From Companilactobacillus farciminis KCTC 3681 = DSM 20184 (GTDB lineage Bacteria > Bacillota > Bacilli > Lactobacillales > Lactobacillaceae), in the NCBI RefSeq assembly GCF_002706745.1, contig NZ_CP017702.1:1798001-1862000 (forward strand): a stretch of 64,000 nt of DNA. Reading direction: 5' to 3'. The notes below the pieces were generated by a model. The model was not told where the DNA came from. It did not search any database and worked only from the letters and a program-made list of their open reading frames with translations. The stretch's first letter is position 1; the number at the start of each line of letters is the position of its first letter. The translations under genes were made by a program, and so were the position numbers. Shown here piece by piece: positions 1,804-48,737 of this stretch.

Positions 1804-1905
1804 AAAATCATTCCCTCCTTTTATTCTTATATGAATAATTTATCAATTAAATATTTGTATTTCTTCAATATCCTGTGAAGATTTTATGAATTTAGGTCAA
1901 AAAAG

Positions 1906-1942
1906 GCCCTGAAATTACCGTTTCAAGGATAATTTCAGGGTA
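1906..1942 (-). terminator. terminator of the dha operon
   Basis: The minus strand reads CCCTGAAATTA, a loop, then TAATTTCAGGG, followed by CCTTTTTTG. It lies immediately after the stop of dhaM. Confidence 0.85.
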
Positions 1943-1945
1943 GCT

Positions 1946-2314
1946 TTATTTAATTATTAATGGTTGAAGATTCTTTTCGATTTCAGCCAATGGAGTATCA
2001 ACTTGAGCTAAAGTGGCAGCGGTATAAGCACCCTCTACCAAAGCTACATCGTATTTATGAATCGTTTTATCGGTCATTTCTATCAACATTTCAAGGTTCA
2101 TCTTCGAACTGCCTAAATCGTAAAATGCTAAAATTTCATCGCCAGTATTATCATCAACAGCTGCTTGAATCTTCTCCAATGAAGAACCAATTTCGCCTTC
2201 ATCAGTTTCTCCAGCTGTCGTTATTGATAAATCTGGTGCTGCTTGAGAAATCAAGTCTTTTACGCCGGCAGCAATCTTACTCGAATGAGAAACTATTACG
2301 ATTCCATATTTCAT
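1946..2314 (-). CDS. dhaM: dihydroxyacetone kinase phosphotransferase subunit DhaM
   Basis: A 122-residue EIIA-Man-like protein. In PTS-linked dihydroxyacetone kinases DhaM takes phosphate from HPr on a histidine and passes it to ADP bound in DhaL. The expected histidine is His10 in VIVSHS. This is the short single-domain form found in Gram-positive bacteria, without the HPr and EI-like extensions of enterobacterial DhaM. It is the last gene of dhaKLM, two bases after dhaL, so it is almost certainly co-translated. It acts in the cytoplasm on glycerol-derived dihydroxyacetone. Confidence 0.93.
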   Translation of the reverse strand: MKYGIVIVSHSSKIAAGVKDLISQAAPDLSITTAGETDEGEIGSSLEKIQAAVDDNTGDEILAFYDLGSSKMNLEMLIEMTDKTIHKYDVALVEGAYTAATLAQVDTPLAEIEKNLQPLIIK

Positions 2315-2316
2315 TT

Positions 2317-2904
2317 CTAGTCCCCCAATACTTCTAATAAGGATTCAAATAAGTACGCACTTGATTGTGCACCAGGATCAATATGTCCCTTTGACTTTTC
2401 CTCTAGATAACTCGCACGACCCTTGGTTGCTACTAATTCTTTGACATTTTCTAGAGCTGAGTCGATAACTTTTTGATCGAAAGCATCATTTTTCAAGGCA
2501 TCGCTAACTGGTTGCCAGATATTGATCATTGTTTTCATACCAACATCTGATTGACCACGGCGTTTGATACCGTCAGTTCCAACTTGAATCAAATCTGCCA
2601 ATTCAATATTTTCAGCCTTAACAGCCTTAGACATATCCAAAAAAGCAGTTCCATACAAAGGACCTGAAGCTCCACCAACTTTTTGAATCATTGCAAAAGC
2701 TGTTGCCTTATACAAATCAGCCACATTTTCAGGGTCTTTTTTGGCAAAAGAGTCTTTGATGGCGTTCATTCCACGATCCATATTCGTTCCGTGATCACCA
2801 TCGCCGATTGCCGTATCCAACTCGTTTAAGTTAGCTTTATTTGCTTGAACTTTTTCTACAAATAAGTTAATCCATTTTTTTGCGTCAACTAATTCTAATT
2901 TCAT
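2317..2904 (-). CDS. dhaL: dihydroxyacetone kinase ADP-binding subunit DhaL
   Basis: A 195-residue all-alpha subunit holding the ADP/Mg cofactor that ferries phosphate from DhaM to dihydroxyacetone on DhaK. The metal-binding signature LDTAIGDGDHG gives Asp30, Asp35 and Asp37. A GGASGPLYGT segment near residues 77-86 matches the nucleotide-contacting loop of the family. It sits between dhaK (13-bp gap) and dhaM (2-bp gap). Length and motifs are standard, with no sign of decay. Confidence 0.94.
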   Translation of the reverse strand: MKLELVDAKKWINLFVEKVQANKANLNELDTAIGDGDHGTNMDRGMNAIKDSFAKKDPENVADLYKATAFAMIQKVGGASGPLYGTAFLDMSKAVKAENIELADLIQVGTDGIKRRGQSDVGMKTMINIWQPVSDALKNDAFDQKVIDSALENVKELVATKGRASYLEEKSKGHIDPGAQSSAYLFESLLEVLGD

Positions 2905-2917
2905 CGAATCTTCCTCT

Positions 2918-3910
2918 CTACCAAGCGATTGTTGTAACTGATTCTTTCAAGAAATTGATCCAGTCACTGTCAGCTTTCATAATAGTTAAAGAAATTCCTT
3001 CCATATCGAGTGAAGTGACCAAATTGCCAACTTTGCTAAACTCAACATCAATACCTTTATCAGCTAATTCTTTCAAAACATCGTTAGCAAAAATATATTG
3101 TTCCATCAATGGAGTTCCACCCATACCGTTAACTAAAATGGCAAAACTTCCTGATTTATCGTCAAATTCTTTTAAAATTTTCTCGATCAATTCATGTGCT
3201 AAATCTTTTGAAGGTTGAATCTTTTCAACAGCATAACCACGTTCATTGTGGATACCAATACCGTATTCAATTTCATCATCGCCTAATTCAAATCCAGGGT
3301 GTCCGACAGCAGGCACAGTAGCTGCATGGAGGGCAATTCCAATCGTTTTAGTGTTGTCGATAACCTTTTGACCTAAAGTTGCGACATCGTCTAAGGACAT
3401 CCCAGAACGTGCTGCAGCTCCAACGACTTTTTCAACTAAAGCAGTGCCGGCAACCCCACGTTTACCTTGAGTAAATTCACTGTTTTCTACTGAAATATCA
3501 TCGTCAACGACAATCGTCTTAATTTTAATATCATCCGCTTCAGCCATCTCTTTAGCCATGTCGAAATTCATAACATCACCGGAATAATTCTTAACTATCA
3601 ACAAAACACCTAAACCTTGATCAACAGCAGTAATAGCTTCATAAATTTGGTCAGGAGTTGGTGAAGTAAAGACTTCTCCAGCTACAGCAGCACTGAGCAT
3701 CCCATCGCCCACGTAGCCAGCATGCAATGGTTCGTGACCACTACCGCCACCAGAAACGATACCGACTTGTTTGTTTTCAGTAAACTTCTTATCGTTTCTA
3801 ACTACAGCTGTCGTACCATCGATCTGTCTTACTAAATCAGAATTGGTCTTAACTAAACCTGAAATCATTTCAGGTACAATATTCTCAACGTTATTAATAA
3901 TCTTCTTCAT
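2918..3910 (-). CDS. dhaK: dihydroxyacetone kinase substrate-binding subunit DhaK
   Basis: A 330-residue protein that binds dihydroxyacetone as a hemiaminal on a histidine. The predicted residue is His221 in GIGIHNERG; the upstream GGGSGHEP motif (about residues 54-61) is also a DhaK hallmark. It is the first gene of dhaKLM, with an AGGAGGAG-type ribosome site close to ATG 3910. No dhaQ/dhaS activator pair is adjacent, unlike in Lactococcus. A cre-like box between the -10 element and the start codon suggests carbon catabolite repression. The pathway feeds dihydroxyacetone phosphate into glycolysis. Confidence 0.95.
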   Translation of the reverse strand: MKKIINNVENIVPEMISGLVKTNSDLVRQIDGTTAVVRNDKKFTENKQVGIVSGGGSGHEPLHAGYVGDGMLSAAVAGEVFTSPTPDQIYEAITAVDQGLGVLLIVKNYSGDVMNFDMAKEMAEADDIKIKTIVVDDDISVENSEFTQGKRGVAGTALVEKVVGAAARSGMSLDDVATLGQKVIDNTKTIGIALHAATVPAVGHPGFELGDDEIEYGIGIHNERGYAVEKIQPSKDLAHELIEKILKEFDDKSGSFAILVNGMGGTPLMEQYIFANDVLKELADKGIDVEFSKVGNLVTSLDMEGISLTIMKADSDWINFLKESVTTIAW

Positions 3911-23524: not shown

Positions 23525-23623
23525 CTCAAAACCTCTTCTCTGGTGGAAATTTTATTAACTTAATTTTACACTTTTATGTACTAAAGGTCGAAATTCCAAA
23601 AAGTATTTTGAATTGTGTGTTAT

Positions 23624-23795
23624 GATGCCGTCGTCCGTTCGGCCCTGGAAAATTGCTGGAACGCCATGGGCACGACTTGGAGCCTTTGCTAAGACCAAAC
23701 CCGGGCAAAGTCTTCAAGCTCGACCTTTCACTAGGCAATAAATTGCCAAGAGAAATTTCATGGCTGAGCATTTTCCAGAACCTCACTCCCGACTA
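23624..23795 (-). repeat. structured intergenic repeat, copy 1
   Basis: Read on the minus strand, it runs from TAGTCGGGAG to GGACGACGGCATC. P1 is CTGGAAAAT with ATTTTCCAG. Inside it lie GGCTGAG-side and GTTCCAGC joints, a P2 hairpin closed by GGCAATTTATTGCC, and a long P3 (CGAGCTTGAAGACTTTGC with GCAAAGGCTCCAAGTCG). A 94-nt internal block is repeated with a single mismatch in copy 3. No protein reading frame is conserved between the three copies. It may be a structured RNA, a cruciform DNA element, or a non-autonomous mobile element; the class is not recognised. Confidence 0.7.
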
Positions 23796-23839
23796 GATAG
23801 TGATTTCTATCTTTATATAAATTACTTCAGAAAATTAAT

Positions 23840-23897
23840 AGAAGATATTATTAGAATTGCAGTAAATTGCTGTGGTTCTAGTAGTATCTTCTTTTTA
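23840..23897 (+). terminator. orphan terminator hairpin
   Basis: AGAAGATA...AGAATTGCAG pairs with CTGTGGTTCT...TATCTTCT and is followed by TTTTT on the plus strand. No plus-strand gene ends nearby. It lies between the two divergent repeats and could end a short unannotated transcript. Confidence 0.45.
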
Positions 23898-23973
23898 TAT
23901 GCGTTGTAAAAAATAAATAGAATTGTTATTTAAAAAGTATGTGTTTAATTCTATCTAAATAGAAGTTGAAATT

Positions 23974-24144
23974 TAGTCGGGAGCAAAAGCCCTGTGATGG
24001 CTCAGCCGCCAGATTTCTTGTTAGTGCTTTAGCACTTACAAGAAGGCCTAGTTTTGAGATTTTGCGTCTTTGGGGCCATGCAAAAGCTCAAAATAGTGCC
24101 GGCAGCGTTCCAGCCAATCACAGGGCTTTTGCGGACGACGGCAT
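23974..24144 (+). repeat. structured intergenic repeat, copy 2
   Basis: Same layout as copy 1 but on the plus strand: TAGTCGGGAG at the left end, GGACGACGGCAT at the right. P1 is a perfect 16-bp helix (23983-23998 with 24117-24132) whose sequence differs completely from that of copy 1. P2 is TTCTTGTTAGTGC with GCACTTACAAGAA. P3 pairs CTAGTTTTGAGATTTTGC with GCAAAAGCTCAAAATAG. The junction sequences GGCTCAGCC and GTTCCAGC are shared with copy 1. Stems vary while junctions and ends are kept, as expected if structure is selected. Confidence 0.7.
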
Positions 24145-24166
24145 ATTTAACTAAACCCAAACTACC

Positions 24167-24352
24167 TTATTTAAGAAACTTACTAAACAAAAACTTATGC
24201 ACGACAACCACAATAGCTAACAAAATAACCCCAATCAAAACTTCGCTGAACAAAAAATTCCATCCCAATGCCAAAAAGATATTCAAAAGCGGATTATTCA
24301 AAATCGAAACCAACAATAAAAACAAAATTATGTCTGCTGTATAAATACTCAT
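24167..24352 (-). CDS. small membrane protein, 61 aa
   Basis: A 61-residue protein with two hydrophobic segments (about 4-28 and 34-52) and a short basic tail (FLFSKFLK). ATG 24352 is chosen over the in-frame ATG 24364, because GGAGG lies between them. An inverted repeat (24363-24383) overlaps the region between its -10 element and ribosome site, so it may be repressed by a dimeric regulator. It diverges from coaBC. Family and function are unknown. Confidence 0.6.
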   Translation of the reverse strand: MSIYTADIILFLLLVSILNNPLLNIFLALGWNFLFSEVLIGVILLAIVVVVHKFLFSKFLK

Positions 24353-24362
24353 GTTTTCCTCC

Positions 24363-24383
24363 ATATACTAGCTAATAGTATAT
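24363..24383. promoter_or_regulatory. inverted repeat operator candidate
   Basis: ATATACTA-GCTAA-TAGTATAT has perfect 8-bp arms. On the minus strand the left arm serves as a -10 element (TATACT) and the right arm reaches the GGAGG of the 61-aa gene. This is the classic position for a repressor. Confidence 0.5.
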
Positions 24384-24430
24384 CCAAAAATTGTATAATA
24401 ATAGTAGAAAAAAGTTATACGAGGTGAAAA

Positions 24431-25621
24431 ATGTTAAAGGGTAAAAACATTGCAGTCTATGTCAGTGGTGGCATTGCTGCATACAAAACGCTCAATGTTG
24501 TTAGAGCATTGATCAAACAACATTCTAACGTACAAGTCATTATGACTAAGGAGGCTCAACAATTTGTCACACCGTTGACCTTTGCTACTTTGAGCCAACG
24601 ACCCGTCATTACTGATAATTTTACAGCCCAAACTAGTAACGACGACTTTATTCCCCACATCAAATTGGCTTTGTGGACTGATTTAGCAATTGTTGTTCCA
24701 GCTACTGCCAATATTATCGGGAAAATGGCTAACGGTATCGCTGATGATATTGCATCAACTAGTTTACTAGCTACTAAAGCTCCTAAACTGGTTTTCCCAG
24801 CAATGAACACTGATATGCTAGAAAACCCTGCTGTCCAAAGAAATCTTCAATTCTTGCAAGCTAATAATGTCAAAGTTGTTCAACCAGCAACTGGCTTTTT
24901 AGCCGAAGGGATGACTGGCAAAGGTCGTCTACCTGAATTAGACCAAATCATGACTTCTATCGAAGAGTTCTTTATTGAACCTAAACTAAAAGGTAAAAAA
25001 ATTATCGTCACTGCCGGTGGTACTAAAGAAGCCATCGATCCAGTCAGATATATCGGCAATCGTTCCTCTGGCAAAATGGGTATCGCTATGGCGCAAGTTG
25101 CCCGTGATTTAGGTGCTGACGTTACTTTGATTACTAGTGTTAAAACCGAGTTATCTGGTGTCAATAAAATAGAAATTCAAACAGCAGACGAATTAATGGC
25201 AGCTTTACGACAAGAATTTCCCCAAGCTGACGTATTAGTTATGGCTGCCGCGGTCGCTGACTTCAAACCGATGACGGTTGCTGATCAAAAGATCAAGAAA
25301 AACCCCAATGAAGATATCTTCACTATCAAATTAACCAAGAATCCTGATATCCTAAAAACTATCGCTGCTACAAAAACTAACCAATTCGTCGTTGGCTTTG
25401 CTGCCGAAACACAAAATCTTTTGGATAACGCCGAGAAGAAGCTCAATAGTAAAAATGCTGACGTCATCTTAGCCAACAATGTTGCTCAAGCTGGTGCTGG
25501 ATTCGGTGTCGATACTAACAAAATGACCCTTTTACAGAAAAATCATACTCCAGAAACTTGGCCTTTGATGTCAAAAGTCGACGTCGCTAAGAAATTCTGG
25601 GACTTCTATTTACAACAATAA
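24431..25621 (+). CDS. coaBC: bifunctional CoaBC (phosphopantothenoylcysteine synthase/decarboxylase)
   Basis: A 396-residue enzyme for two steps of coenzyme A synthesis. The N-terminal CoaC flavoprotein half has GGIAAYKTLN, the FIPHIKL histidine and the substrate motif PAMNTDM. The C-terminal CoaB half begins near residue 190 with TAGGTKEAIDPVRYIGNRSSGKMG and contains KIKKNPNEDI, the CTP-dependent synthase lysine region. Length and domain order are normal. ATG 24431 follows GAGGTG. A TATAAT-like promoter lies at about 24393-24402. Confidence 0.95.
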   Translation: MLKGKNIAVYVSGGIAAYKTLNVVRALIKQHSNVQVIMTKEAQQFVTPLTFATLSQRPVITDNFTAQTSNDDFIPHIKLALWTDLAIVVPATANIIGKMANGIADDIASTSLLATKAPKLVFPAMNTDMLENPAVQRNLQFLQANNVKVVQPATGFLAEGMTGKGRLPELDQIMTSIEEFFIEPKLKGKKIIVTAGGTKEAIDPVRYIGNRSSGKMGIAMAQVARDLGADVTLITSVKTELSGVNKIEIQTADELMAALRQEFPQADVLVMAAAVADFKPMTVADQKIKKNPNEDIFTIKLTKNPDILKTIAATKTNQFVVGFAAETQNLLDNAEKKLNSKNADVILANNVAQAGAGFGVDTNKMTLLQKNHTPETWPLMSKVDVAKKFWDFYLQQ

Positions 25622-25650
25622 TCTCACCCTAACATTTTTACACCCCCAAC

Positions 25651-25694
25651 AAAAAAGACTTAGAAAATCAGTTATGATCTTCTAAGTCTTTTTC
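25651..25694. terminator. bidirectional terminator
   Basis: AAAAAGACTTAGAA pairs with TTCTAAGTCTTTTT. It serves coaBC and the convergent lpdD. Confidence 0.88.
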
Positions 25695-26101
25695 TATTGC
25701 GGATTTTCTGAATCGGAATAATAAATTGGTTCTGGAGCATCAAAATCAGTTTCTTGTAACCAATTTTTCAAATCTTCTCCGAGTTTTTTTGCCATTTGAG
25801 ATGAAACGGCAATTTGCTTTCTAGAAATGTGATTAACGTGAACACCAGCCGTAATCGTACAGCTACCTGGTAAATCCGACTGAATTATTTTAGCAACTCG
25901 AACGGCTAAAACGTCGTCTTTATGAAATCTACCATCATGGCTCGGATAACGAATCGTTTGAATATCAGTCTTCTTCGTCAAAGTAGTCACTGTTCCAATG
26001 TGAGGTGTATCGCCGCCAGTTATCGTTACGAACAAGTCTTTACCAATTACAAAAACTTCCAAATTCATCGTGTAATTTTCTTGTGTGACTGAAAACTTCA
26101 T
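25694..26101 (-). CDS. lpdD: LpdD-type gallate decarboxylase accessory subunit
   Basis: A 135-residue protein matching LpdD of the lactobacillar gallate decarboxylase system; these proteins are thought to act with the UbiD-type subunit, probably as a prenyl-FMN chaperone. Visible features are TGGDTPHIGTVT, the PSHDGRFHKDD segment and AGVHVNHISRKQI. ATG 26101 is chosen: it shares one base with the stop of the upstream lpdC-lpdB gene (TAATG) and follows GGGAGGG. The gene ends in the coaBC-facing terminator. Translational coupling fits a complex with the fused enzyme. Confidence 0.82.
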   Translation of the reverse strand: MKFSVTQENYTMNLEVFVIGKDLFVTITGGDTPHIGTVTTLTKKTDIQTIRYPSHDGRFHKDDVLAVRVAKIIQSDLPGSCTITAGVHVNHISRKQIAVSSQMAKKLGEDLKNWLQETDFDAPEPIYYSDSENPQ

Positions 26102-28161
26102 TAAATTCCCTCCCAACGACCGTCAGAATCGTTTTCGATTCCTAAAGCATCTAATTCCTTCATTGTTTGATGATCAACTAAATCTTGAATGGTTTGGGGA
26201 TGGTTATAAAAAGCTGGAATAGGGGGAATCATTTGCACGCCCATCTTAGATAATTTAGTCATATTTTCCAAATGGATCGTATTCAACGGCGTTTCTCTGG
26301 GAACAATAATCAATTTACGCTGTTCTTTTAACGTAACGTCAGCAGCACGAGAGATTAAATTATCACCGATACCAACAGCAATACTAGCAACGGTCTTCAT
26401 ACTTGCGGGTACGATTACCATCCCATCAGTCAAAAATGAACCACTGGCAATGGTTGCACCTAAGTCGCTGTCGCTATAAAAATAATCTGCCAACTGCTTA
26501 ATATCTGCTAGAGACATGTCAGTTTCTAGCTGCAAATTCTTTTTAGCCCAAGCACTCATAACGACATGCGTCTCCACATTTTCAATCTGACTTAGTTTCT
26601 TCATCAAATCAATTGCATAAATCGTTCCTGAAGCACCGGTAATTCCGATGACAATTTTTCTCTTACGTGCCATTTCAACACTTCCCCAATCTAAATATTT
26701 CTGCCAGTCTTTCACTTCTTTAAACGAAGCTCTGATGAATTGGTCTTTCATGTCAAATGGAACTGTTCCATCGATGATAGTCTTGGAACTCATCCCACGA
26801 AAACGAATCGACTTAGGATCATATTCTGGCCTTTCTGAAGGATCAAGTGGATGATTACGCATTCCCGGTAGAACCATGATATCTTTGTCCCCTTGGAAAC
26901 GGGTATTCATTGTCCAAACAACGTCGTTCATGTCAAAAATATCAACATCTTCATCTACTAAAAAGACGGTCTTTAATTCTTTGAAAGCTGACAAAGCTAA
27001 AATAGCGGCTTGTCTTTGAATACCTTCGTCTGCTTCGTTATCCTTGTGGATTTGCATGATAGTCATCAACTTACCACCACCTGCTGGAGGATTGTAAACA
27101 TTAACGACTTTTCCTGGAATTGCTTTATCAACTAATTCGAGGATACTTGCTTCAGTCGGAATACCGGCCATTGAAACGTGTTCTTCACTAGGACCAATCG
27201 TTGTTTGCATAATTGGATTGTCTTTTCTGTGAGTAATAGCTTTGACTTTGACCACATTAACGGCTGGATTAGCATCACCATTGTAACCGGGAAATTCTGG
27301 CATAGCTTTACCAGTATTAGTATTGATATCTTCTTGCATTGTTTGATTTGGCATGATTTCGGCCTCAACGACGTATTCAGCACGAGCAATCGCTTTTTCA
27401 TCAACTGAAGTAGCGTTGACCAATTGCACAGCTTGATTACGCAAAGCACCGGCAATGTTCAATTCATCATAGCCAAGTGGTGTTGTAGGTGGCTCAAAAG
27501 TTGCACCAATAGTAATCGCAGGGTCCAAACCAATATTAATTGTAATTGGCATTGGTTTGTCTAATTTCTCAAATTGTTTTTGGAAATGACCAATGTGACG
27601 ACCACCGGGCATGATATACATTCCAATAGTATCTTTATCTTCCAAAACCATGCGGTGAATTGTCACGTCTGTCATAGTTTTGTCCGGATCTGAACCTAGC
27701 ACTAGACCCATTGTGATATAAGGACCAGCATCATATTCAGTATTAGTTGGAGCTGGCAAAATCTTTCTAATATCAAAATCCTTATCAGTTGCCTTGTGAA
27801 CTACCTCTTGAACTGGAGCTTTGTCAGAATCCACCATTTCTGGAGCTACAGGATGTTCGACTGAATCTTTCAACAAACGTCCTAGAGTCTTGTAATCATG
27901 GTGCAAAATCATTCCGTCACGTTTACGACTGGCCATTGCACCAATCAAAACACGTGTATTCGGAAATCCTTTCACATTGTTGAACATCATCGCAGGTCCT
28001 TCTTGTGTTGGACGCTTAACTGTTCCACCGGCACCGATATAACGGTAAACTCCTGATAATTCAGCATCAGGATCGACTTCAACATCAGTTTCATGATATT
28101 GACCAGGTTGTTGTTTGAGTTCTTCAATAACTCTTCTTAAATCATATGGTTGTTTTGACAT
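26101..28161 (-). CDS. lpdC: LpdC-LpdB fusion: gallate decarboxylase (UbiD) plus flavin prenyltransferase (UbiX)
   Basis: A 686-residue fusion. Residues 1-490 align closely with LpdC, the prenyl-FMN-dependent UbiD-family decarboxylase that turns gallate and protocatechuate into pyrogallol and catechol (blocks YRYIGAGGTV, PGGRHIGHF, FEPPTTPLGY, NPPAGGGKLMTI). A six-residue linker (DWGSVE) leads to Met497 and a complete UbiX/LpdB flavin prenyltransferase (GITGASGTIYA, PASMKTVASIA, VPRETPLN). In Lactiplantibacillus lpdB is a separate gene. ATG 28161 follows GAGGAGG. GGGGAAG also precedes Met497, so the UbiX part may be made separately too. The operon is lpdC-lpdB then lpdD, under a promoter with a LysR-type box. 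Confidence 0.88.
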   Translation of the reverse strand: MSKQPYDLRRVIEELKQQPGQYHETDVEVDPDAELSGVYRYIGAGGTVKRPTQEGPAMMFNNVKGFPNTRVLIGAMASRKRDGMILHHDYKTLGRLLKDSVEHPVAPEMVDSDKAPVQEVVHKATDKDFDIRKILPAPTNTEYDAGPYITMGLVLGSDPDKTMTDVTIHRMVLEDKDTIGMYIMPGGRHIGHFQKQFEKLDKPMPITINIGLDPAITIGATFEPPTTPLGYDELNIAGALRNQAVQLVNATSVDEKAIARAEYVVEAEIMPNQTMQEDINTNTGKAMPEFPGYNGDANPAVNVVKVKAITHRKDNPIMQTTIGPSEEHVSMAGIPTEASILELVDKAIPGKVVNVYNPPAGGGKLMTIMQIHKDNEADEGIQRQAAILALSAFKELKTVFLVDEDVDIFDMNDVVWTMNTRFQGDKDIMVLPGMRNHPLDPSERPEYDPKSIRFRGMSSKTIIDGTVPFDMKDQFIRASFKEVKDWQKYLDWGSVEMARKRKIVIGITGASGTIYAIDLMKKLSQIENVETHVVMSAWAKKNLQLETDMSLADIKQLADYFYSDSDLGATIASGSFLTDGMVIVPASMKTVASIAVGIGDNLISRAADVTLKEQRKLIIVPRETPLNTIHLENMTKLSKMGVQMIPPIPAFYNHPQTIQDLVDHQTMKELDALGIENDSDGRWEGI

Positions 28162-28192
28162 ACAATTGCCTCCTCTTTTTCTTAACATGATA

Positions 28193-28221
28193 ATTATAGG
28201 TTCTGGATATTGGAGGAACAA
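28193..28221 (-). promoter_or_regulatory. promoter of the lpd operon
   Basis: On the minus strand TTGTTC (28216-28221) and TATAAT (28193-28198) are 17 bp apart. Transcription should start near 28186, leaving a 25-nt leader before the lpdC start. Confidence 0.75.
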
Positions 28222-28241
28222 TTCAAGTTGACACAGTATGT

Positions 28242-28256
28242 ATTCCATAATGGAAT
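28242..28256. promoter_or_regulatory. LysR-type (T-N11-A) palindrome upstream of lpdC
   Basis: ATTCCATAATGGAAT is a 15-bp palindrome containing T-N11-A. Its centre lies about 63 bp upstream of the inferred start of lpd transcription, the usual recognition-site position for a LysR activator. Phenolic-acid operons in lactobacilli are commonly substrate-inducible through LysR regulators. Confidence 0.55.
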
Positions 28257-28265
28257 GCATTGAAA

Positions 28266-28304
28266 AATAAAAAAAGCCTAATGACGATTTCTCATCACTA
28301 AGCT
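28266..28304 (-). terminator. terminator after the 95-aa membrane gene
   Basis: On the minus strand AGCTTAGTGATGA pairs with TCGTCATTAGGCT, followed by TTTTTT. The left arm overlaps the final codons of the gene ending at 28298. Confidence 0.75.
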
Positions 28305-28585
28305 TGTCCCATCGAGCCAATCGCAACTACTAATGCAATCACCCAAATTATTATCATATATCCGTAAAAAAGTTTATCTCGCAACGGAACTGGTCGAACA
28401 TTCCGAAATGAATTGGCGATGGCTTCAATAAACACCGCTATTGGAATATAAGCACTCAACCCAGTTATTCCGATAACGAACAAATTGACCCAACTTCCAC
28501 CGACAGCCTTCAGATATAGACTGTAAATAAAAATCGCAATTAAAACAAAACTAGGCACTACCTCAATTGTGCGACGTATTTTCAT
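28298..28585 (-). CDS. small membrane protein, 95 aa
   Basis: A 95-residue protein with three hydrophobic segments (about 9-28, 33-55 and 72-91). It overlaps the last 23 bases of the helicase gene and so belongs to the same transcript. The ribosome site is GGGGTA. The family was not recognised. Downstream it is closed by a terminator before the lpd promoter region. Confidence 0.65.
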   Translation of the reverse strand: MKIRRTIEVVPSFVLIAIFIYSLYLKAVGGSWVNLFVIGITGLSAYIPIAVFIEAIANSFRNVRPVPLRDKLFYGYMIIIWVIALVVAIGSMGQA

Positions 28586-30914
28586 TTTTTACCCCATTCA
28601 CTTTTTTCTTTTTCTTTGGCAAATTTAATTCAAACAACAACGGATTGGAATCTGGTGCTATCCTCATACACAACTCCTCTTGTGCTCGAGTAACTCCAAC
28701 ATACAACAACCGTCTTTCTTCTTCAATGAATTCTGAGTAGTTTTTAACTTCTTGATAAAAATTGTGAAACATGATTGTTTCTTTCTTTTTATTCAATGTT
28801 GCTTTCAAATTGATTGGATTAAAGGCGTTATTCTTCCAAAAGTCTTGGTAATCATCAATTCTCGTTGCCCCCAGAGCCGTCCCCAAATATTCATAACTCT
28901 TGTTATAAACTAGACTCCATTTTTTCGTAAATTGTTCAAAAGTCATATTTGGTGGGAACCATTCATTGATCGATAGTCCTGGTTTTTCAACTTCTTTGTT
29001 CGTCAAACCATACAAATAAACATACTTGAACTCTAGTCCTTTAGCTTGGTGCAAAGATAAGAATTGAATGTGATGTTCTTGCTTGTTCCGTTCCACCTGA
29101 CTAGATAAAATTGACTTTTTTTGTTCCTCATCAAAGAAGAAGTCGTCGATATTGCTATATGTTTCTAATTCTTCTTCCAGATAATTCTTAATTTCATTGA
29201 CTTCAGATTTGGCCATGAATTTCTTTTGAATCATGTAATCAAAGTATTTGTCAGTTAACTTGATAGCCGCTTGTAACAAGTCCTTGATCAAAGCCTTAGC
29301 GATTTTTTCTTGGCTTTCTTGATTGTCGGCCTGTTCCATTCTCTTCTTGAAACGCTTGATACTGTTGAAATAAATTTGAACTTTTTCATCGGTTCTCTTC
29401 AAAGGCGTATTGAATTCAGCGTTGTAACTCTCTGCCGCTAACAAGTACTTACTTAATTTACGAAATTTATCATCAGCACGAGCTTCAACTTTTTGGGTAT
29501 GATTCTTGTACTTACTGAAGCCGATTCGATTCGACTGTTCAGAAAAATACTTGTACTCATCTTTCCACAAAGCTTTCATCAATTCAGTAATAATTCGATA
29601 AATTAAATTATTCTGCAAAATGGCACTAGCATTGTTAATATCAGCGTAAATTTCTTTATTAGCTAACCAATCAGCCAGCAACATTCGTGAAGAATTATAG
29701 CGAACTAAAATGGCAATGTCTTCGTTATCAATATCAGGATCATTGATTTGTTTGACCAAATGTTTGAGCATCTTGGACTTGCGACTGAAACCAGACTTCT
29801 TGCTACTATAAAGTACAAAATTACCGACACCGGTTTTTCCTGAGAGCAAATCTTTATCTAAACGAACGTGATTTTCTTTAATCAAAGGAATAACTTTTTG
29901 GAGAATCTTCTCGCCAGTTCGATAATTAGTTGAAAGATTTTTCTTCTGAGCGTTAGGCAATAATTTCTTATAGTTCAAAATAAATTTTGGATTACTGCCA
30001 CGAAAGGCATAAATACTTTGGTCATCATCTCCAATAACGATCAGATGTTCCATTGTTTCGGGGCTGAGCAATTTCGAAATAATTTTCCACTGTAAGTTGT
30101 CGATATCTTGGAACTCATCAATCACAGCAATCTTATAACGTGACATGATGCGTTGATAAAACTGTAAGTAATTAGGATCTTCCATACTTTTCAACAGCAA
30201 CATCTTCATATCATTAAAATCGATATAGCCGTTTTGGCGTTTCAACTCGCGATATTTTGCCATTACATCAACGTAATCAGAATAAAAGTTTTCATCATGA
30301 CTTTGTCTAGAAAATCCCGCCATCTTCTCAATAGCTGCCGTCAATGAAACATCAGCTTCTCGAGGTAAAATCCCGTCACTAGTTAAATCTTGATTGATCA
30401 AGTACTCATTAAGATTAAACATTTGTTCCAACATTTCTGACTTTGTAATCATCGTGCTGGGATGTTTGATCGTATCGCCCAAATCCCTAGTGAACAAACG
30501 ATAACTCGTTAAAACCCGTGCTTGTTGATATTCCTGATTTTGACGTAATAATTGATAAAACAAGGCATGAAAAGTAGTGAAATTGGGATGACCGTCTGCC
30601 AATTCCAGTCCTGTTTCACTCAATTCGTTTACAAATTTATTGTACCGATCACCCATATCGACCCGTGATTTATGAGAAAAAGTAATTCCTAAAATTTCAT
30701 CAGGGTCGGCGTTACCTTTAGCAATAGCAATCAAAGCCATTAAAATAAAAATCGTTGTTTTACCAGCTCCAGCACAAGCATTAACTAGTAACGGCTTAGT
30801 AAAATCATTTTCCAAAATAGCAATTTGTTCATTGGAGAACTTCATATTAAGACCTGATTCCATCAGGTCGATTATTTCTTTCGTTGATAAATCTTGAATA
30901 TCCTTATCCCCCAA
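28563..30914 (-). CDS. UvrD/PcrA-like superfamily 1 DNA helicase
   Basis: A 783-residue UvrD-like helicase. Walker A is NACAGAGKTT (Lys52), motif II FQDIDNLQWK, motif III GDDDQSIYAFRG, motif IV LSTNYRT, motif V LSLHQAKGLEFKYV and motif VI LLYVGVTRAQEE. The insertion between motifs IV and V (about residues 430-600) is long and lysine-rich. It is distinct from housekeeping PcrA by divergence and context. The start is TTG 30914, overlapping the last codons of the upstream LysR gene; an ATG at residue 24 is an alternative. Likely role is recombination or repair; no nuclease domain is visible. Confidence 0.85.
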   Translation of the reverse strand: MGDKDIQDLSTKEIIDLMESGLNMKFSNEQIAILENDFTKPLLVNACAGAGKTTIFILMALIAIAKGNADPDEILGITFSHKSRVDMGDRYNKFVNELSETGLELADGHPNFTTFHALFYQLLRQNQEYQQARVLTSYRLFTRDLGDTIKHPSTMITKSEMLEQMFNLNEYLINQDLTSDGILPREADVSLTAAIEKMAGFSRQSHDENFYSDYVDVMAKYRELKRQNGYIDFNDMKMLLLKSMEDPNYLQFYQRIMSRYKIAVIDEFQDIDNLQWKIISKLLSPETMEHLIVIGDDDQSIYAFRGSNPKFILNYKKLLPNAQKKNLSTNYRTGEKILQKVIPLIKENHVRLDKDLLSGKTGVGNFVLYSSKKSGFSRKSKMLKHLVKQINDPDIDNEDIAILVRYNSSRMLLADWLANKEIYADINNASAILQNNLIYRIITELMKALWKDEYKYFSEQSNRIGFSKYKNHTQKVEARADDKFRKLSKYLLAAESYNAEFNTPLKRTDEKVQIYFNSIKRFKKRMEQADNQESQEKIAKALIKDLLQAAIKLTDKYFDYMIQKKFMAKSEVNEIKNYLEEELETYSNIDDFFFDEEQKKSILSSQVERNKQEHHIQFLSLHQAKGLEFKYVYLYGLTNKEVEKPGLSINEWFPPNMTFEQFTKKWSLVYNKSYEYLGTALGATRIDDYQDFWKNNAFNPINLKATLNKKKETIMFHNFYQEVKNYSEFIEEERRLLYVGVTRAQEELCMRIAPDSNPLLFELNLPKKKKKVNGVKNENTSHN

Positions 30915-31794
30915 TATCTTTCAGGTGCATTTTGACATATTTCCAAAACATATTATTAGCACTAGAATGTTGACCTTTTTTTCTGACAAAGCACAGTTTA
31001 TTAGCAATGTTTGTCGTTAAGGGCACGATTGAAAATTCTTTACTATCAAAATTCTGTGCTGTTTTTTTCATCATTAAAGAAATACCCATATTATTTTGAA
31101 CCATCTGCATGATCAAATCAACACGCGTACCTTGATAGCTAATATCAGGTTTAAAACCAGCCATTTGACACAATTTAATAACGAGGTCATAAAGATTCGT
31201 CGACGGCCCCAATATTAAAAAACGTTCTTTCTTTAACTTTTTTAAGTCTAAAATTTCTTCATTAGCAAAAGGATGATTCTTCGGTAAGACAGCCACGAAA
31301 TCGTCATCTTCCATTTCAATATATTCCAAATCAGAATCATCGAAATCAAACATTCGGGCAAAAATAATCTCACAAACACCAGATTTTAAAGAGTTTACTA
31401 AGTTATAGCTCTCTTCTTCTTTGAGCTGCATGTGAACTTCAGGATGTTGCTGCAAAAATTTCGTGATCAAATTAAAACTGACATAACTAGGCATTGTCGG
31501 AATAGTGTGCATTTCAATTGTTAAATTCTTAGCATCTTGAAAATCAGCCAATTTAATCGTCATTTCACTATATTTAGCGAGGATTTCTTTGGCATAAGGT
31601 AAGACAATTTCAGCTTGTTGAGTCAACTCAATTTTACGATGAGCACGTTTAAATAGTGACACATCTAATTCTTTTTCCAGTGCTAAAATCTGCTTGGAAA
31701 TATTTCCCTGCGTAGTGAACAAGTTATTAGCCGTGTCAGTATAATTTAACGTTTTGGATAAATCTACAAAAATCTGTAGCTTGTGCAAATCCAT
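30904..31794 (-). CDS. LysR-family transcriptional regulator
   Basis: A 296-residue regulator: N-terminal winged HTH (LNYTDTANNLFTTQGNISKQILALEKEL) and a C-terminal periplasmic-binding-type effector domain. ATG 31794 is chosen because AGGAGG precedes it at eight bases; the frame is open to GTG 31803. It overlaps the start of the helicase gene by 11 bases, so the two are coupled. It could control the lpd operon 2.7 kb away, which has a LysR-type box, but this is a guess. The effector is unknown. Confidence 0.9.
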   Translation of the reverse strand: MDLHKLQIFVDLSKTLNYTDTANNLFTTQGNISKQILALEKELDVSLFKRAHRKIELTQQAEIVLPYAKEILAKYSEMTIKLADFQDAKNLTIEMHTIPTMPSYVSFNLITKFLQQHPEVHMQLKEEESYNLVNSLKSGVCEIIFARMFDFDDSDLEYIEMEDDDFVAVLPKNHPFANEEILDLKKLKKERFLILGPSTNLYDLVIKLCQMAGFKPDISYQGTRVDLIMQMVQNNMGISLMMKKTAQNFDSKEFSIVPLTTNIANKLCFVRKKGQHSSANNMFWKYVKMHLKDIGG

Positions 31795-31908
31795 TCCCAA
31801 CACCTCCTATTCCATTTTAGAATACTATATCATAGTTTTTGAATTGTTTATTCAGTCCACCAATCTTAAAGTTTTATTTAGTTACTTTTTGAAAGGGGTA
31901 TTACGATT

Positions 31909-32637
31909 ATGCCAACTGGCGTTATTATTAATGCGGCTTCTGTTTTATTCGGTGGCCTACTTGGTGGCTTCTTGGGTGATAAATTTAGTGAACAATTCAA
32001 AAAAGACATCACGTTGATTTTTGGTGTTTGTTCCATGGGTATGGGAATTTATTCTATCGCACCAATGAAATATATGCCTGCTGTTATTTTTGCCTTAGTT
32101 ATTGGTACTGGTATCGGTCTTTGGATGCACTTGGGTAAGTGGATTGACAAGGGTGCAATGGAAATGCAAAAACCAATTTCTAAATTTTTTCCAAACAACA
32201 ACTCTGACATGTCACAAGAAGAATTTATCAACACTTTAGTAACAGTTATCGTACTTTTCTGTGCTAGTGGTACTGGTATTTACGGAAGTTTGGACAACGG
32301 TATGACTGGTGACACAACTATCTTGATTTCTAAGTCAGTACTCGACTTCTTCACAGCAGCAATCTTTGCTTGTAACTTAGGATATGTTGTTTCTATCATT
32401 GCTATACCACAATTTATTTTGTTCTATATTTTATTCTTACTCGCAAGATTTATTTTCCCACTGACAAATCCAAATATGATTTTAGACTTTAAAGCCTGCG
32501 GTGGTTTCTTGATGCTGGCAACTGGCTTTAGAATGGTCAAATTAAAGATGTTCCCAATAGCTGACATGATTCCAGCAATGGTCATCATTATGCCATTAAG
32601 TTGGATCTGGGCTAACTGGTTTTTACCACTACTCTAA
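31909..32637 (+). CDS. DUF554 family membrane protein
   Basis: A 242-residue protein with about seven membrane segments and the DUF554 (YqgA/YdfK) layout: GVIINAASVLFGGLLGG at the N-terminus, FGVCSMGMGIYSI, then GTGIGLWM. Homologues are thought to be small-molecule or ion transporters, without a firm substrate. The ribosome site GAAAGGGG lies rather far from the ATG. It diverges from the LysR gene and ends in a strong terminator. Confidence 0.82.
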   Translation: MPTGVIINAASVLFGGLLGGFLGDKFSEQFKKDITLIFGVCSMGMGIYSIAPMKYMPAVIFALVIGTGIGLWMHLGKWIDKGAMEMQKPISKFFPNNNSDMSQEEFINTLVTVIVLFCASGTGIYGSLDNGMTGDTTILISKSVLDFFTAAIFACNLGYVVSIIAIPQFILFYILFLLARFIFPLTNPNMILDFKACGGFLMLATGFRMVKLKMFPIADMIPAMVIIMPLSWIWANWFLPLL

Positions 32638-32641
32638 TACT

Positions 32642-32673
32642 TACAACCGATTACATAAGTCGGTTGTTTTTTT
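32642..32673 (+). terminator. terminator after the DUF554 gene
   Basis: ACAACCGA pairs with TCGGTTGT, followed by seven T residues. Confidence 0.85.
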
Positions 32674-32723
32674 ATTGCGGTCGTGTATCATTTTTACTGA
32701 CGAGACAAATAGGAGGAAATAAT

Positions 32724-33515
32724 TTGGCTGAAATAAAAGTAGTCGCAACTGACATCGATGATACTCTATTCGATGACGACAAGAATTATGATGTAAAGCG
32801 TTTGAATGATTATATCGATAAGCTTCATCAAAAGAATATTTTATTTACTGTAGCAAGTGGCAATAACTACGATCATTTAAGAAGAATCTTTGAAAAGACT
32901 CCTGACATTGATTTATTCATTGCCGAAAATGGTGCTCAAATAGTCGAAGCAGGAAAAACTATCTTCGAACATCCCATGCCAAAAACTTTAGTTCACGACA
33001 TGATTAAATCTTTAAACAGTGAATTAGACTTAAAATCACTATCAATTTCTGGTAAAAAAGCTACTTACGCTGAAAGTAAGAAAGATTTGCCACTCTATCA
33101 CATGAAAAATCTCAAAATTGTTCCCGATTTATTCCAAGTTGACGATACCTTTTTCAAATTCAATATCCAATTGCAACACGACGATTTAACTCAAGCTATC
33201 GAATTTCTAAATAAACATTATGGAAATGACGTTTACGCAGCCGTCAGTGGCTTTGGCAGTATCGATATCATGCGTAGCAACATTGACAAAGGTATTGCTT
33301 TGAATCGTTTGAGTAGATTAAAAGGTATTCCGCTAACTGAAATCATGGCGTTTGGCGACAACCTCAACGATTTAGAAATGATCCAAGAAGTTGGCCTTGG
33401 CGTTGCTATGAAAAATGCCAAACCAGAAGTATTGCAAGCATCCGACTTAGTCACGGAAACTGACAATAACCACGATGGTGTTCTCAATACCTTGCAAACA
33501 TATTTTAAGTTGTAA
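32724..33515 (+). CDS. Cof-type HAD-superfamily phosphatase
   Basis: A 263-residue HAD IIB hydrolase with motif I ATDIDDTLF (Asp10, Asp12), motif II ASGNNYD, a lysine at DKGIAL and motif IV FGDNLNDLEM. The frame is open to 32664, but TTG 32724 is the likely start because AGGAGG stands seven bases upstream. It differs in sequence from the HAD protein at 17382, so the two are not recent duplicates. The substrate is unknown, probably a sugar phosphate or cofactor phosphate. Confidence 0.85.
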   Translation: MAEIKVVATDIDDTLFDDDKNYDVKRLNDYIDKLHQKNILFTVASGNNYDHLRRIFEKTPDIDLFIAENGAQIVEAGKTIFEHPMPKTLVHDMIKSLNSELDLKSLSISGKKATYAESKKDLPLYHMKNLKIVPDLFQVDDTFFKFNIQLQHDDLTQAIEFLNKHYGNDVYAAVSGFGSIDIMRSNIDKGIALNRLSRLKGIPLTEIMAFGDNLNDLEMIQEVGLGVAMKNAKPEVLQASDLVTETDNNHDGVLNTLQTYFKL

Positions 33516-33635
33516 CAAAAAAACTCGTTAGACATTCAGGTTCTTTCTTACGTTAATTAGTCTTAAAATGCCATCTGAGCATTACAAAACCATCACTAAC
33601 GATTAGATAACGTTTCTTATCATTATTCAAGGTCA
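33516..33635. other. non-coding stretch with no clear content
   Basis: A 120-bp stretch between the HAD gene and the next hairpin, with no supported ORF. A 25-codon minus-strand frame (LNNDKKRYLIVSDG and on) lacks a ribosome site. The stretch is the left part of a 417-bp gene-free region (33516-33932) that also holds a terminator and a structured repeat. Confidence 0.4.
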
Positions 33636-33684
33636 AAAATAGCCTCTATTTGGAGAATACACTCCCAATAGAGGCTTTTGATTT
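33636..33684 (+). terminator. terminator hairpin
   Basis: AAAATAGCCTCTATT, an interrupted GGAG/CTCC inner stem, then AATAGAGGCTTTTGATTT. It could terminate the HAD transcript 120 bp downstream of its stop. Confidence 0.7.
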
Positions 33685-33685
33685 G

Positions 33686-33713
33686 TTGATATTAAAAATA
33701 GAACCACTATAAA
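33686..33713 (+). promoter_or_regulatory. possible promoter at the edge of repeat copy 3
   Basis: TTGATA and TATAAA are separated by 16 bp. The -10 element touches the left end of the structured repeat, so the repeat would be transcribed almost from its first base. No gene follows in this direction. Confidence 0.4.
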
Positions 33714-33880
33714 GTCTGGAATAGCGAAGAAAATTGGCTCAAATGTGAAATTTCTCTTGGCAATTTATTGCCTAGTGAAAGGTCGAGCTTGAAGACTTTG
33801 CCCGGTTTTGGTCTTAGCAAAGGCTCCAAGTCGTGCCCACATTGTTCCAGCCAAATTTTCTTTGCTATGGAAGACGGAAT
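33713..33880 (+). repeat. structured intergenic repeat, copy 3
   Basis: It has the same plan as copies 1 and 2, with ends AGTCTGGAA and GGAAGACGGAAT. Where the other copies have GTCG at the left end and CGAC at the right, this copy has GTCT and AGAC, a compensatory change. P1 (33721-33737 with 33851-33868) has a third, unrelated sequence. The inner 94 nt (33746-33839) match copy 1 (23667-23760, opposite strand) with one mismatch. It ends about 50 bp from the convergent PspC-like gene. Confidence 0.7.
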
Positions 33881-33932
33881 ACTTCCACTAACCAAGGTTA
33901 AGAAAGAACTACTATCATCTAACAAGCTTTTT

Positions 33933-34121
33933 TTATTCTGGCTTTTCCATGATTAACAACAAAATTAAGTAAACGATGATGCCTGGGAAAACTGGTGTCA
34001 ATGATAAGGCTACATATAATATTCGACCAACAGCTGGATTCCAATCGTACTTCTCACAAAAACCAGCAATGACGCCACCCAATACTTGATTGTCTTTAGA
34101 TCTTTTAACTGAAATATGCAT
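33933..34121 (-). CDS. minimal PspC-domain protein (copy 2)
   Basis: A 62-residue protein made only of a PspC domain: basic N-terminus, GGVIAGFCEKYDWNPAVGRILYV, then a hydrophobic hairpin with PGIIVYLILLLIM. PspC proteins sit in the membrane and are linked to envelope stress in other bacteria. ATG 34121 follows GAGGTG; an in-frame GTG nine bases upstream is less likely. It is 18 bp downstream of a second PspC gene of the same length, so they form a small tandem duplicated operon. Confidence 0.85.
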   Translation of the reverse strand: MHISVKRSKDNQVLGGVIAGFCEKYDWNPAVGRILYVALSLTPVFPGIIVYLILLLIMEKPE

Positions 34122-34393: not shown

Positions 34394-34813
34394 TTACAAT
34401 TGACTTACAAATTTGTCACATAGTTTACTTAACGCTTGTAAGTTATGATTGAAGGCATTTTTAGCAATTGGCCGTAATAGTACCAAAGGTAAATGCCCAT
34501 CATCGACTACAAATAACGTCTCGGTAATTACCGTTTGTTGAGTCTTGACGGATAATTCAAAAATAAGTTTATACTCAAGTTCTCCCCCGTGACTGTGCAA
34601 AATAATTTTTCCATTTTCTTTGATCACAGAAATAATCTCATCATTGACTAGTGCCACTTGATTGCGATGAACCGAGAAAGTATTAGTATCAATTTGCGTG
34701 ACACTACTGATAGCTGGATTCCAAGCCATAATCTGTCCAATATTTAACAAAACTAACTCCACTTCATTTTTAGTGGCACCTGTGATAGTGCTGTTAGTAA
34801 AATATTTTTTCAT
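34394..34813 (-). CDS. SRPBCC-fold protein
   Basis: A 139-residue protein with the START/SRPBCC pattern: N-terminal helix before MAWNPAISSV, a long antiparallel sheet and a C-terminal helix (NAFNHNLQALSKLCDKF). The fold binds hydrophobic ligands and is used in polyketide cyclases and many orphan proteins. The ribosome site is GAGGAG. No partner gene suggests a ligand. Confidence 0.7.
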   Translation of the reverse strand: MKKYFTNSTITGATKNEVELVLLNIGQIMAWNPAISSVTQIDTNTFSVHRNQVALVNDEIISVIKENGKIILHSHGGELEYKLIFELSVKTQQTVITETLFVVDDGHLPLVLLRPIAKNAFNHNLQALSKLCDKFVSQL

Positions 34814-34888
34814 AAATTTACTCCTCTTAATTTGATGAGTTTATTCTATGAAAAAATAATCTTAATAAATAATCAGTATTCTGATATT

Positions 34889-37577: not shown

Positions 37578-37840
37578 AAAAAAGCGCTTCTATCAAAGGT
37601 CATCCCTCAGATAGAAACGCTTATTTGGCGTGGTACCATTCTATTTCAAAAGTAAATTCACACTTACTTTTCTCAACAACATGTATTGCACATGTCAGTG
37701 TTTTAATGGGTACTAGCCATCATTCCTTGATTATTCAGGAATGCCAATCACGAGTCATTTTTCATCTATCAATTTGATCTCTTCACAGCTACCGAGACTT
37801 TCTGGGCAAATTATGGTAAATAGACTACTTTTTCGTTCAC
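37578..37840 (-). ncRNA. T-box leader, methionine specifier, upstream of metQ copy B
   Basis: Read on the minus strand it begins about 8 bases after the metI stop with AAAAAGTAG of stem I. The specifier loop GAAAAATGACTCGTGA gives ATG (Met). The T-box ATGGTACCACG lies at 37630-37640, and a terminator (AAGCGTTTCTATC with GATAGAAGCGCTT, then T-run) at 37578-37622. Its position inside the operon allows a second round of methionine control. Confidence 0.88.
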
Positions 37841-37847
37841 TTTGTTA

Positions 37848-38537
37848 TTAATGTTCTAATTTACGTACCGCGAAATCACCAATTCCTTGAATTACGAAGA
37901 CAAGGACTAGGATGAATAACATAGATACGATGGTAACATCATTTTCAAATCGTTGATAACCAACGGAAATGGCCATGTTACCTAGACCACCACCACCAAC
38001 GGCACCGGCCATGGCAGTCAAACCAATCAAACTGATAATTGTTAGAGTACCAGAACGAATAAGCTCTGGAAGTCCTTCACGTAAATAAACTCGGAAGATG
38101 ATCTTCATTGGTGATAAACCGATTGCTTCAGCGGCTTCGATAACACCAGGGTCAACTTCGACTAAAGCTAATTGTACTTGTCTGGCAAAGAATGGTGCAG
38201 TACCTACAACTAACGGAACTAAAGCTCCAGTAGGTCCAATTGTTTGTCCAACAATCAACTTAGTAAATGGTCCAATAACAGCTAGTAAGATAATGAAAGG
38301 AATTGATCTGAATAGATTGACTAGTTTATCTAAGCAAGTATAGAAAGCCTTGTGTGGCGTAATACCATCTTCTGCTGTAACAACTAGTAAAATTCCTAAG
38401 ATAATTCCGATGATTCCAGCAAATAAGGCACTGACAAAAGTCATATATAATGTTTGCCAAATTGCGACTACGAAACCATTGTCACCTTCCCAATTGGCGA
38501 CGACGTTTGGTAAAAATTTATTAACTAAATCTGCCAT
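37848..38537 (-). CDS. metI: methionine ABC transporter permease MetI
   Basis: A 229-residue permease with five membrane segments and the EAA loop EAAEAIGLSPMKIIFRVYLRE that docks on MetN. It starts three bases after the metN stop. MetI dimers with MetN import L- and D-methionine delivered by MetQ. A new T-box starts immediately after its stop codon. Confidence 0.95.
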   Translation of the reverse strand: MADLVNKFLPNVVANWEGDNGFVVAIWQTLYMTFVSALFAGIIGIILGILLVVTAEDGITPHKAFYTCLDKLVNLFRSIPFIILLAVIGPFTKLIVGQTIGPTGALVPLVVGTAPFFARQVQLALVEVDPGVIEAAEAIGLSPMKIIFRVYLREGLPELIRSGTLTIISLIGLTAMAGAVGGGGLGNMAISVGYQRFENDVTIVSMLFILVLVFVIQGIGDFAVRKLEH

Positions 38538-48368: not shown

Positions 48369-48730
48369 GGGGGTGTTCTGGATTCGACATGTGTAGTAGC
48401 GTGCAGGCTGCACTTAGGGCCTTGCGTCCCTTTAAAACGCACAGTTTATTATAACTGCAAAAAATAATAATAACTACGCATTAGCTGCCTAAAAACAGTC
48501 TAAGCGTGATCCATTCTAATTTCGCCCAAGGGTTGGAAATGGGTCTCAAAAATATTGGGCTACGTTTAACTGTGCATCCTGAATAGTTAAAAAGAGATCA
48601 TCGGGATAGTCATTGTGGTTAGCCGGGTCGTATGGCGTTCATGATGGCGAAACTTCAAATGATACGACTATGAGTGTAGAGGCTTGCATAGCATTATGCT
48701 TGGACAGGGGTTCAATTCCCCTCACCTCCA
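48369..48730 (+). ncRNA. ssrA: transfer-messenger RNA
   Basis: The 5' end GGGGGTG pairs with CACCTCC near the 3' end to form the alanine-type acceptor stem. The tRNA-like part includes CTGGATTCGAC and the T-arm GGTTCAATTCCCC. The resume codon starts the tag reading frame at 48457-48492, encoding AKNNNNYALAA and a stop. The last base is the discriminator A; CCA is not encoded and must be added. It rescues stalled ribosomes and tags the truncated protein for proteolysis. A strong terminator follows at once. Confidence 0.97.
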
Positions 48731-48737
48731 TAATGAA

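Follow-up and report, generated by a model that had tools for sequence, protein, structure and literature searches.

What are the three structured segments that recur in a 64,000-nt stretch (the window) of the Companilactobacillus farciminis KCTC 3681 genome, contig NZ_CP017702.1, positions 1,798,001 to 1,862,000? A sequence-only reading had described them as three copies of a repeat with one plan, in which a long stem (P1) closes the structure and two further stems (P2 and P3) lie inside it. Our analysis suggests that, rather than stand-alone RNAs, they are arms of small, non-coding, non-autonomous transposable elements of the Lactobacillaceae, similar to miniature inverted-repeat transposable elements (MITEs), an explanation to which, taken whole and including mobilization by a transposase in trans, we give a probability of about 0.72. 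The three segments, with their matches to a covariance model (CM R1) and their fold scores against 200 dinucleotide shuffles each, are:

23624–23795, minus strand: arm A, a three-way junction of ~170 nt (P1 closing stem, P2, P3); model match 23625–23794, 182.6 bits; fold z −4.3
23974–24144, plus strand: arm B, divergent partner of A; model match 23975–24144, 178 bits; fold z −7.9
33713–33880, plus strand: arm C; model match 33713–33880, 183.9 bits; fold z −4.8

The model recovered all three segments where the sequence-only reading had placed them, at 178–184 bits, scores that include the effect of arms A, B and C having been among the copies from which it was built. The shared plan held up as well, each arm folding better than 200 of 200 shuffles with a long P1 and two inner stems; arms A and C are nearly identical in P2 and P3, most of their differences being in P1. 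The earlier failure to name an RNA family was borne out, as no Rfam 15 covariance model reached its gathering score at the window arms, the best overlap (mt-tmRNA, E 0.31, at the edge of arm A) being at chance level, and no Rfam match was found at the arms in 20 stretches from other genera. A known Rfam family was rejected on these grounds.

The arms belong to a widespread structured, MITE-like family in Lactobacillaceae. Nucleotide searches of the C. farciminis genome with each arm returned dozens of copies, 57 of which were used to build the model, and the genome search with a covariance model that the sequence-only reading had named as a check then gave 97 matches at 73 sites (E ≤ 0.01, with 150 of 1089 first-look candidates scored). 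The three copies first noticed are thus present in the window and are only 3 of 97 in the genome. The family was found in 34 of 36 Companilactobacillus genomes, this one included, with at least 78 matches in each of 10 of the 36, and in 78 of 301 sampled Lactobacillaceae genomes representing 13 of 40 genera, again counting its own genus; because nine candidates were scored per genome in that survey, its copy numbers are lower bounds. An order-level search with a family-wide model matched 27 of 395 genomes, 26 of them within the same family, and the single match outside it was one weak match in one genome (E 5.5e-6). Scanning named genomes with a DNA pattern yielded at least 120 stretches, and the 80 listed were all named as lactobacilli or pediococci; genera among the matches listed were Companilactobacillus, Levilactobacillus, Lacticaseibacillus, Schleiferilactobacillus, Pediococcus, Lactiplantibacillus, Limosilactobacillus and unassigned Lactobacillus. 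Nothing was found when arm C was searched in phages and plasmids, the core pattern in viral contigs, or a GC-rich relative of the arm in phages; searches with the GC-rich or plasmid-borne arm relatives as queries returned two to four plasmid records each. In the portions of the literature available to our search, among them PMC10969869, PMC4596501, PMC3049150, PMC2267715, PMC3733652 and PMC6542083, the element is apparently undescribed, which does not establish its absence from print.

Covariation among copies confirmed that the fold is conserved. In an alignment of the 57 copies made without reference to structure, 36 of 50 pairs had changed on both sides with pairing kept; 98.6% of paired cells could pair, compared to 77.5% in shuffled controls, and cells with changes on both sides numbered 664 (shuffled mean 212; none of 500 shuffles reached 664). 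When partners were slid by one to three columns, pairing fell from 98.6% to 33–42%. Four of five covariation measures were reached by none of the 500 shuffles; the fifth, a count of further pair types, stood at 69 against a shuffled 77.7, and all 500 shuffles reached 69. The end pair that the sequence-only reading had seen to change together, GTCG/CGAC to GTCT/AGAC, has more states than were noted, the pair next to GTC being G-C in 34, C-G in 29, T-A in six, T-G in two and C-C in one of 72 aligned copies from this genome. A cross-genus alignment, fitted to the model and biased towards the fold, had changes on both sides in 48 of 50 pairs, and amid these freely varying stems the junction letters GGCTCAG, GAAATT, AAGGCCGAGC and GTTCCAGC were kept across genera. 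Stem length also varies, P2 stem-loops being longer in some stretches from other genera (L209, L210 and L216).

The same reading had taken compensatory change as a sign of selection on structure. The conserved fold and covariation beyond controls agree with this without singling out an RNA fold: single mismatches counted in a strand-neutral way (G-U vs A-C) were 46 vs 77 in copies from this genome, 23 vs 25 across the genus and 12 vs 10 across the family, indicating no RNA-strand preference. A DNA hairpin, or a palindrome copied during replication, could therefore also explain the covariation, and the arm may act either as a DNA end signal or as an RNA. An apparent G-U strand asymmetry (90 G-U vs 18 A-C cells at the strictest cut of alignment A4) was dropped when the strand-neutral count disagreed.

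The arrangement of the arms points to a larger unit. At all 24 sites in this genome with two matches, a minus-strand match is followed by a plus-strand match, so that the arms stand back to back and read outward (the matches overlap at one site, 749544). The same layout was found at 9 of 9 two-match sites in stretches from other genera and, in a third set where more distant matches were joined, at 32 of 35 multi-match sites, the other three being minus-minus-plus, plus-plus and minus-minus. Spacers between the arms are AT-rich and often contain a strong hairpin, and hairpins are found upstream of many single copies too; 15 of 23 spacers folded from this genome had z < −2, the shortest (~60 bases) not among them. 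Elements measured 299–527 bp at the eight C. farciminis sites used for end analysis and 532 bp at a locus in another genome (L351), short and without coding capacity. Among open frames of at least 80 amino acids, one overlaps the window elements, a 96-codon TTG frame over arm B that we take to be spurious. With a crude caller of open reading frames, at least one gene 3' end was found next to 60 of 72 sites.

Each segment is real and is one arm of something longer, which is seen most clearly around arm C, where comparison with three sister genomes (G026, G005 and G007) delimits a 372-bp element:

33539–33910, no strand assigned: C element, 372 bp, its ends being the terminal inverted repeats; missing from all three sister genomes
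33539–33551, plus strand: left terminal inverted repeat GGTTCTTTCTTAC, from pattern search and end comparison
33898–33910, minus strand: right terminal inverted repeat, AGTTCTTTCTTAA on the minus strand, from pattern search and end comparison
33568–33609, minus strand: decayed, internally deleted left arm, in which ATGCCATC ... CGATTAGATA resembles the two arm ends; recognized by eye from the sequence and missed by the model
33642–33675, plus strand: spacer hairpin GCCTCTATT...AATAGAGGC followed by TTTT, seen in the sequence, with like hairpins upstream of copies 40600, 1464793 and 1694718
33532–33538, plus strand: left target duplication ACATTCA; single ACTTTCA in G026 and G007, ACTTTTCA in G005
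33911–33917, plus strand: right target duplication ACTATCA, equal to the left one in five of seven letters
33524–33532, plus strand: CTCGTTAGA, the 5' arm of the native terminator into which the element is inserted; terminator intact in G026, G005 and G007
33919–33935, plus strand: 3' arm of the interrupted native terminator with its T-run, TCTAACAAGCTTTTTTT, from the sister-genome comparison

The empty site reads ACTCGTTAGACTTTCATCTAACGAGCTTTTTT in G026 and G007 and has one extra T in G005; the element sits in the loop of a terminator that is unsplit in all three. A terminator scan of 33450–34000 listed no terminator, and the spacer hairpin was likewise not called.

Other sites carry the same marks of mobility. 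The terminal inverted repeat GGTTCTTTCTTAA was found at both ends, with up to three mismatches, at 11 of the 73 sites in this genome, and eight of these, together with an insertion present only in G026, were used as nine sites for further analysis. At these nine chosen sites, 53 of 63 letters of the 7-bp flanking duplications match, compared to 24.9 on re-paired flanks (0/20000), and the duplication is perfect at four of nine, including 749544, 1187310 and 1772718; at site 1734735 the 7-bp frame matches at three of seven letters, and the element is flanked on each side by an 11-bp CAGAAAAATTA instead. The G026-only insertion, opposite window position ~20868, carries a perfect inverted repeat of 14 bp (ends GGTTCTTTCTTAAG / CTTAAGAAAGAACC) and a duplicated CTCAATT, and it too interrupts a terminator loop, the terminator being unbroken in the window, G005 and G007. 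Folds of rejoined flanks were more stable than those of re-paired flanks (13/100000). A strict detector, chosen after a looser first one had called 61 of 72 re-paired flanks, found a loop-split terminator at five of nine sites and in 8 of 72 re-paired flanks (452/100000), and inspection of the folds by eye suggested a rejoined stem with its T's at seven of nine. Sister genomes show empty sites, and copies turn over between close species. In a search for a possible autonomous partner with the same ends, the pattern GGTTCTTTCTTAA with up to one mismatch had 28 matches in this genome, compared to 16 for a reversed control. Three sites (2514289, 378194 and 1742566 of G000:C1, G000 being the C. farciminis genome) share ~70 bp of left flank, pointing to a duplication or to a longer repeat around the element. 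In Pediococcus damnosus (L262) the inverted repeat is a different one, CTAAAGGTTGAAAGTA, without mismatch for 14 bases or more; the ends thus differ between genera.

Arms A and B form a composite of an older kind:

23604–24165, no strand assigned: A/B composite with approximate limits, many sister-genome repeat matches ending near 23604 and 24165
23796–23973, no strand assigned: AT-rich A/B spacer, fold z −5.8; similar spacers in other minus-plus pairs
23843–23889, plus strand: terminator-like hairpin with T-run within the spacer, 20 pairs in the scan followed by TCTTTTTATA

This composite is orthologous in G026 and internally deleted in G005 and G007. Composites of its type are generally older, orthologous in the sisters and often internally deleted, and several lie shortly past stop codons; at the A/B site a 61-codon minus-strand frame without a Pfam match has its end at 24167, which leaves 22 bases to arm B.

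A link to a transposase came from plasmids. A GC-rich relative of the arm, used as query, identified four lactobacillus plasmids, and on plasmids of L. brevis and L. plantarum a related arm lies in an insertion sequence of the ISLre2 family, whose transposase is defined by NF033529 (Pfam PF06782), between the transposase stop and the right end of the element. On one of them (L372, NZ_CP033886.1) the arm is at 2981–3121 (105 bits), downstream of a transposase at 1563–2960 that scores 351 bits against a cut-off of 200, with its stop at 2960 and the right end at ~3180; the arm is on the transposase strand and reads outward, as in the repeats. The block 1450–3184 recurs at 98.7% identity on another plasmid (L374, NZ_CP151093.1) with other immediate flanks, and there the transposase alignment is in two pieces. 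A weaker arm match holds the same position in an ISLre2 element of Loigolactobacillus backii (L375, 2296–2447, 27 bits, E 2e-5 in 31 kb), whose ends are GTGTMAAG and whose target duplication is GTACAAGAAG (10 bp); the L. backii element is present on three plasmids, two of which share the operon context of the first. No relatives of the ISLre2 transposase were found in viral contigs. The insertion sequences resemble the repeats in that one carries a clear outward-reading arm, with the weaker case in L. backii; the repeats differ in having no transposase, two arms, other terminal letters, and a duplication of 7 bp rather than the 10 bp of L. backii.

On the earlier choice between a structured RNA and an element family, the inverted repeats, 7-bp duplications, empty sister sites and ISLre2 relative favor the second. 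A complete element would consist of an inverted repeat, a leftward-outward arm, an AT-rich spacer that often holds a hairpin, a rightward-outward arm and an inverted repeat. A transposase in trans would insert it with a 7-bp duplication, in the clearest cases into the loop of an intrinsic terminator, where insertion may do little harm because the spacer hairpin can probably take over termination. The fold of the arm would be kept for mobility, either as an end-recognition hairpin or as RNA, a role suggested by the arm between transposase stop and right end of the ISLre2 element, and a transposase of the ISLre2 type might mobilize the repeats.

Several observations weigh against this explanation. 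The inverted repeat was not seen at both ends of the other 62 of 73 sites in this genome, three of the 11 with it were dropped as unconvincing, and no clean duplication was found at the older A/B composites. In other genomes an automatic search of 32 minus-plus pairs for ends and duplications gave eight candidates, of which only L351 and L262 were judged real, so that insertion into terminator loops is established for Companilactobacillus only. As to the transposase, the repeat ends differ from the plasmid ISLre2 ends, which keeps cross-mobilization at the level of inference; tblastn found no ISLre2-like transposase in 2.0 Mb (loci L001–L370), a search that did not take in the C. farciminis genome as a whole; and of 10 further plasmid loci that encode an ISLre2-type transposase, 9 (one from Streptococcus) had no arm match, indicating that only some members of the family carry the arm as a module. 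The contexts of L372 and L374 are also not wholly independent, since a 102-bp piece of the L372 left flank is found in L374, 418 bp upstream of the shared block.

It is possible, if doubtful, that the arms are a new class of structured RNA with a cellular job, such as a 3'-untranslated region (UTR) stabilizer or regulator, that spread by hitch-hiking and is selected as RNA. The junction letters kept between varying stems across genera would fit such a class, as would the frequent position of arms near stop codons, the placement of the ISLre2-borne arm on the transposase strand downstream of the stop, and a folding energy that is lower on the sense strand in 57 of 91 copies from this genome, 37 of 46 from the genus and 21 of 28 from the family, although the difference is slight on average. 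The strand-neutral mismatch count, the turnover of copies between close species and the finding of no promoters above chance argue otherwise. A related proposal, that the arm is a transposon-borne structured RNA, the 3' UTR of ISLre2-type transposase mRNA, and takes part in transposition, for example as a tether for the transposase or a hairpin steering it to terminators, with the MITE-like elements having kept only this signal, seems to us quite unlikely; if it held, it would represent a novel mode of target choice guided by structure.

Covariation might also be a by-product of replication, with palindromes matched by template switching and stem blocks swapped by recombination in the absence of selection on the fold. 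Pairing that is almost wholly Watson-Crick, P1 stems that differ blockwise between subfamilies, 32 combinations of P2 and P3 variants among 72 copies, and the existence of internally deleted copies are all consistent with this, but copying of palindromes alone would not maintain the fixed three-way layout, nor would it conserve unpaired junction letters across genera while stems change, and we regard it as unlikely. Very improbable is a REP/REPIN-like system, in which a RAYT (Y1) transposase acts on single-stranded hairpins. The inverted pairs, in which a short conserved tag (GTCN) adjoins a hairpin, do resemble the REP dimers of PMC3733652, where the REP/REPIN elements of the GTAG and CGTC families are inverted dimers with structured spacers, some of them within target palindromes. 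REPs are palindromes of 20–40 bp, whereas the repeat arms are ~170-nt three-way junctions; inverted repeats and target duplications are present in the best-preserved elements, and the ISLre2 link points elsewhere.

The MITE-like explanation places the family beside known structured repeats such as BOX, RUP and SPRITE of pneumococcus and bcr of Bacillus cereus. According to the available parts of PMC3049150, PMC10969869 and PMC6542083, these are likewise short, intergenic, high-copy and non-coding, BOX and RUP folding strongly and SPRITE resembling a terminator; two divergent ~170-nt three-way-junction arms, compensatory stems across many genera and insertion into terminator loops are not described for them in those parts. 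With the family described here, well-studied food bacteria gain a widespread structured mobile element that Rfam 15 does not contain. The family could be used to study how insertion elements locate terminators and whether strong covariation in bacterial repeats reflects RNA or DNA structure, with the ISLre2-borne arm as a testable link to a transposase. Group IIC introns insert at terminator or attC hairpins; the arms differ from these in having no Rfam match to any intron.

Two further candidate insertions were rejected. A 1.4-kb insert in G026 opposite window position ~28260, considered as a transposon, proved to be a single 458-codon open frame (L138, 7322–8698) that the window lacks at the corresponding position, and a further element of 456 bp at 34428–34883 lies largely inside an open frame. 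The latter frame, of 139 codons at 34394–34813 on the minus strand, has no Pfam match and falls mostly within the ~456-bp stretch missing in G026, G005 and G007. Elsewhere in the window there is a T-box leader at 37610–37849 (minus strand) and a tmRNA at 48369–48733 (plus strand) with the tag AKNNNNYALAA.

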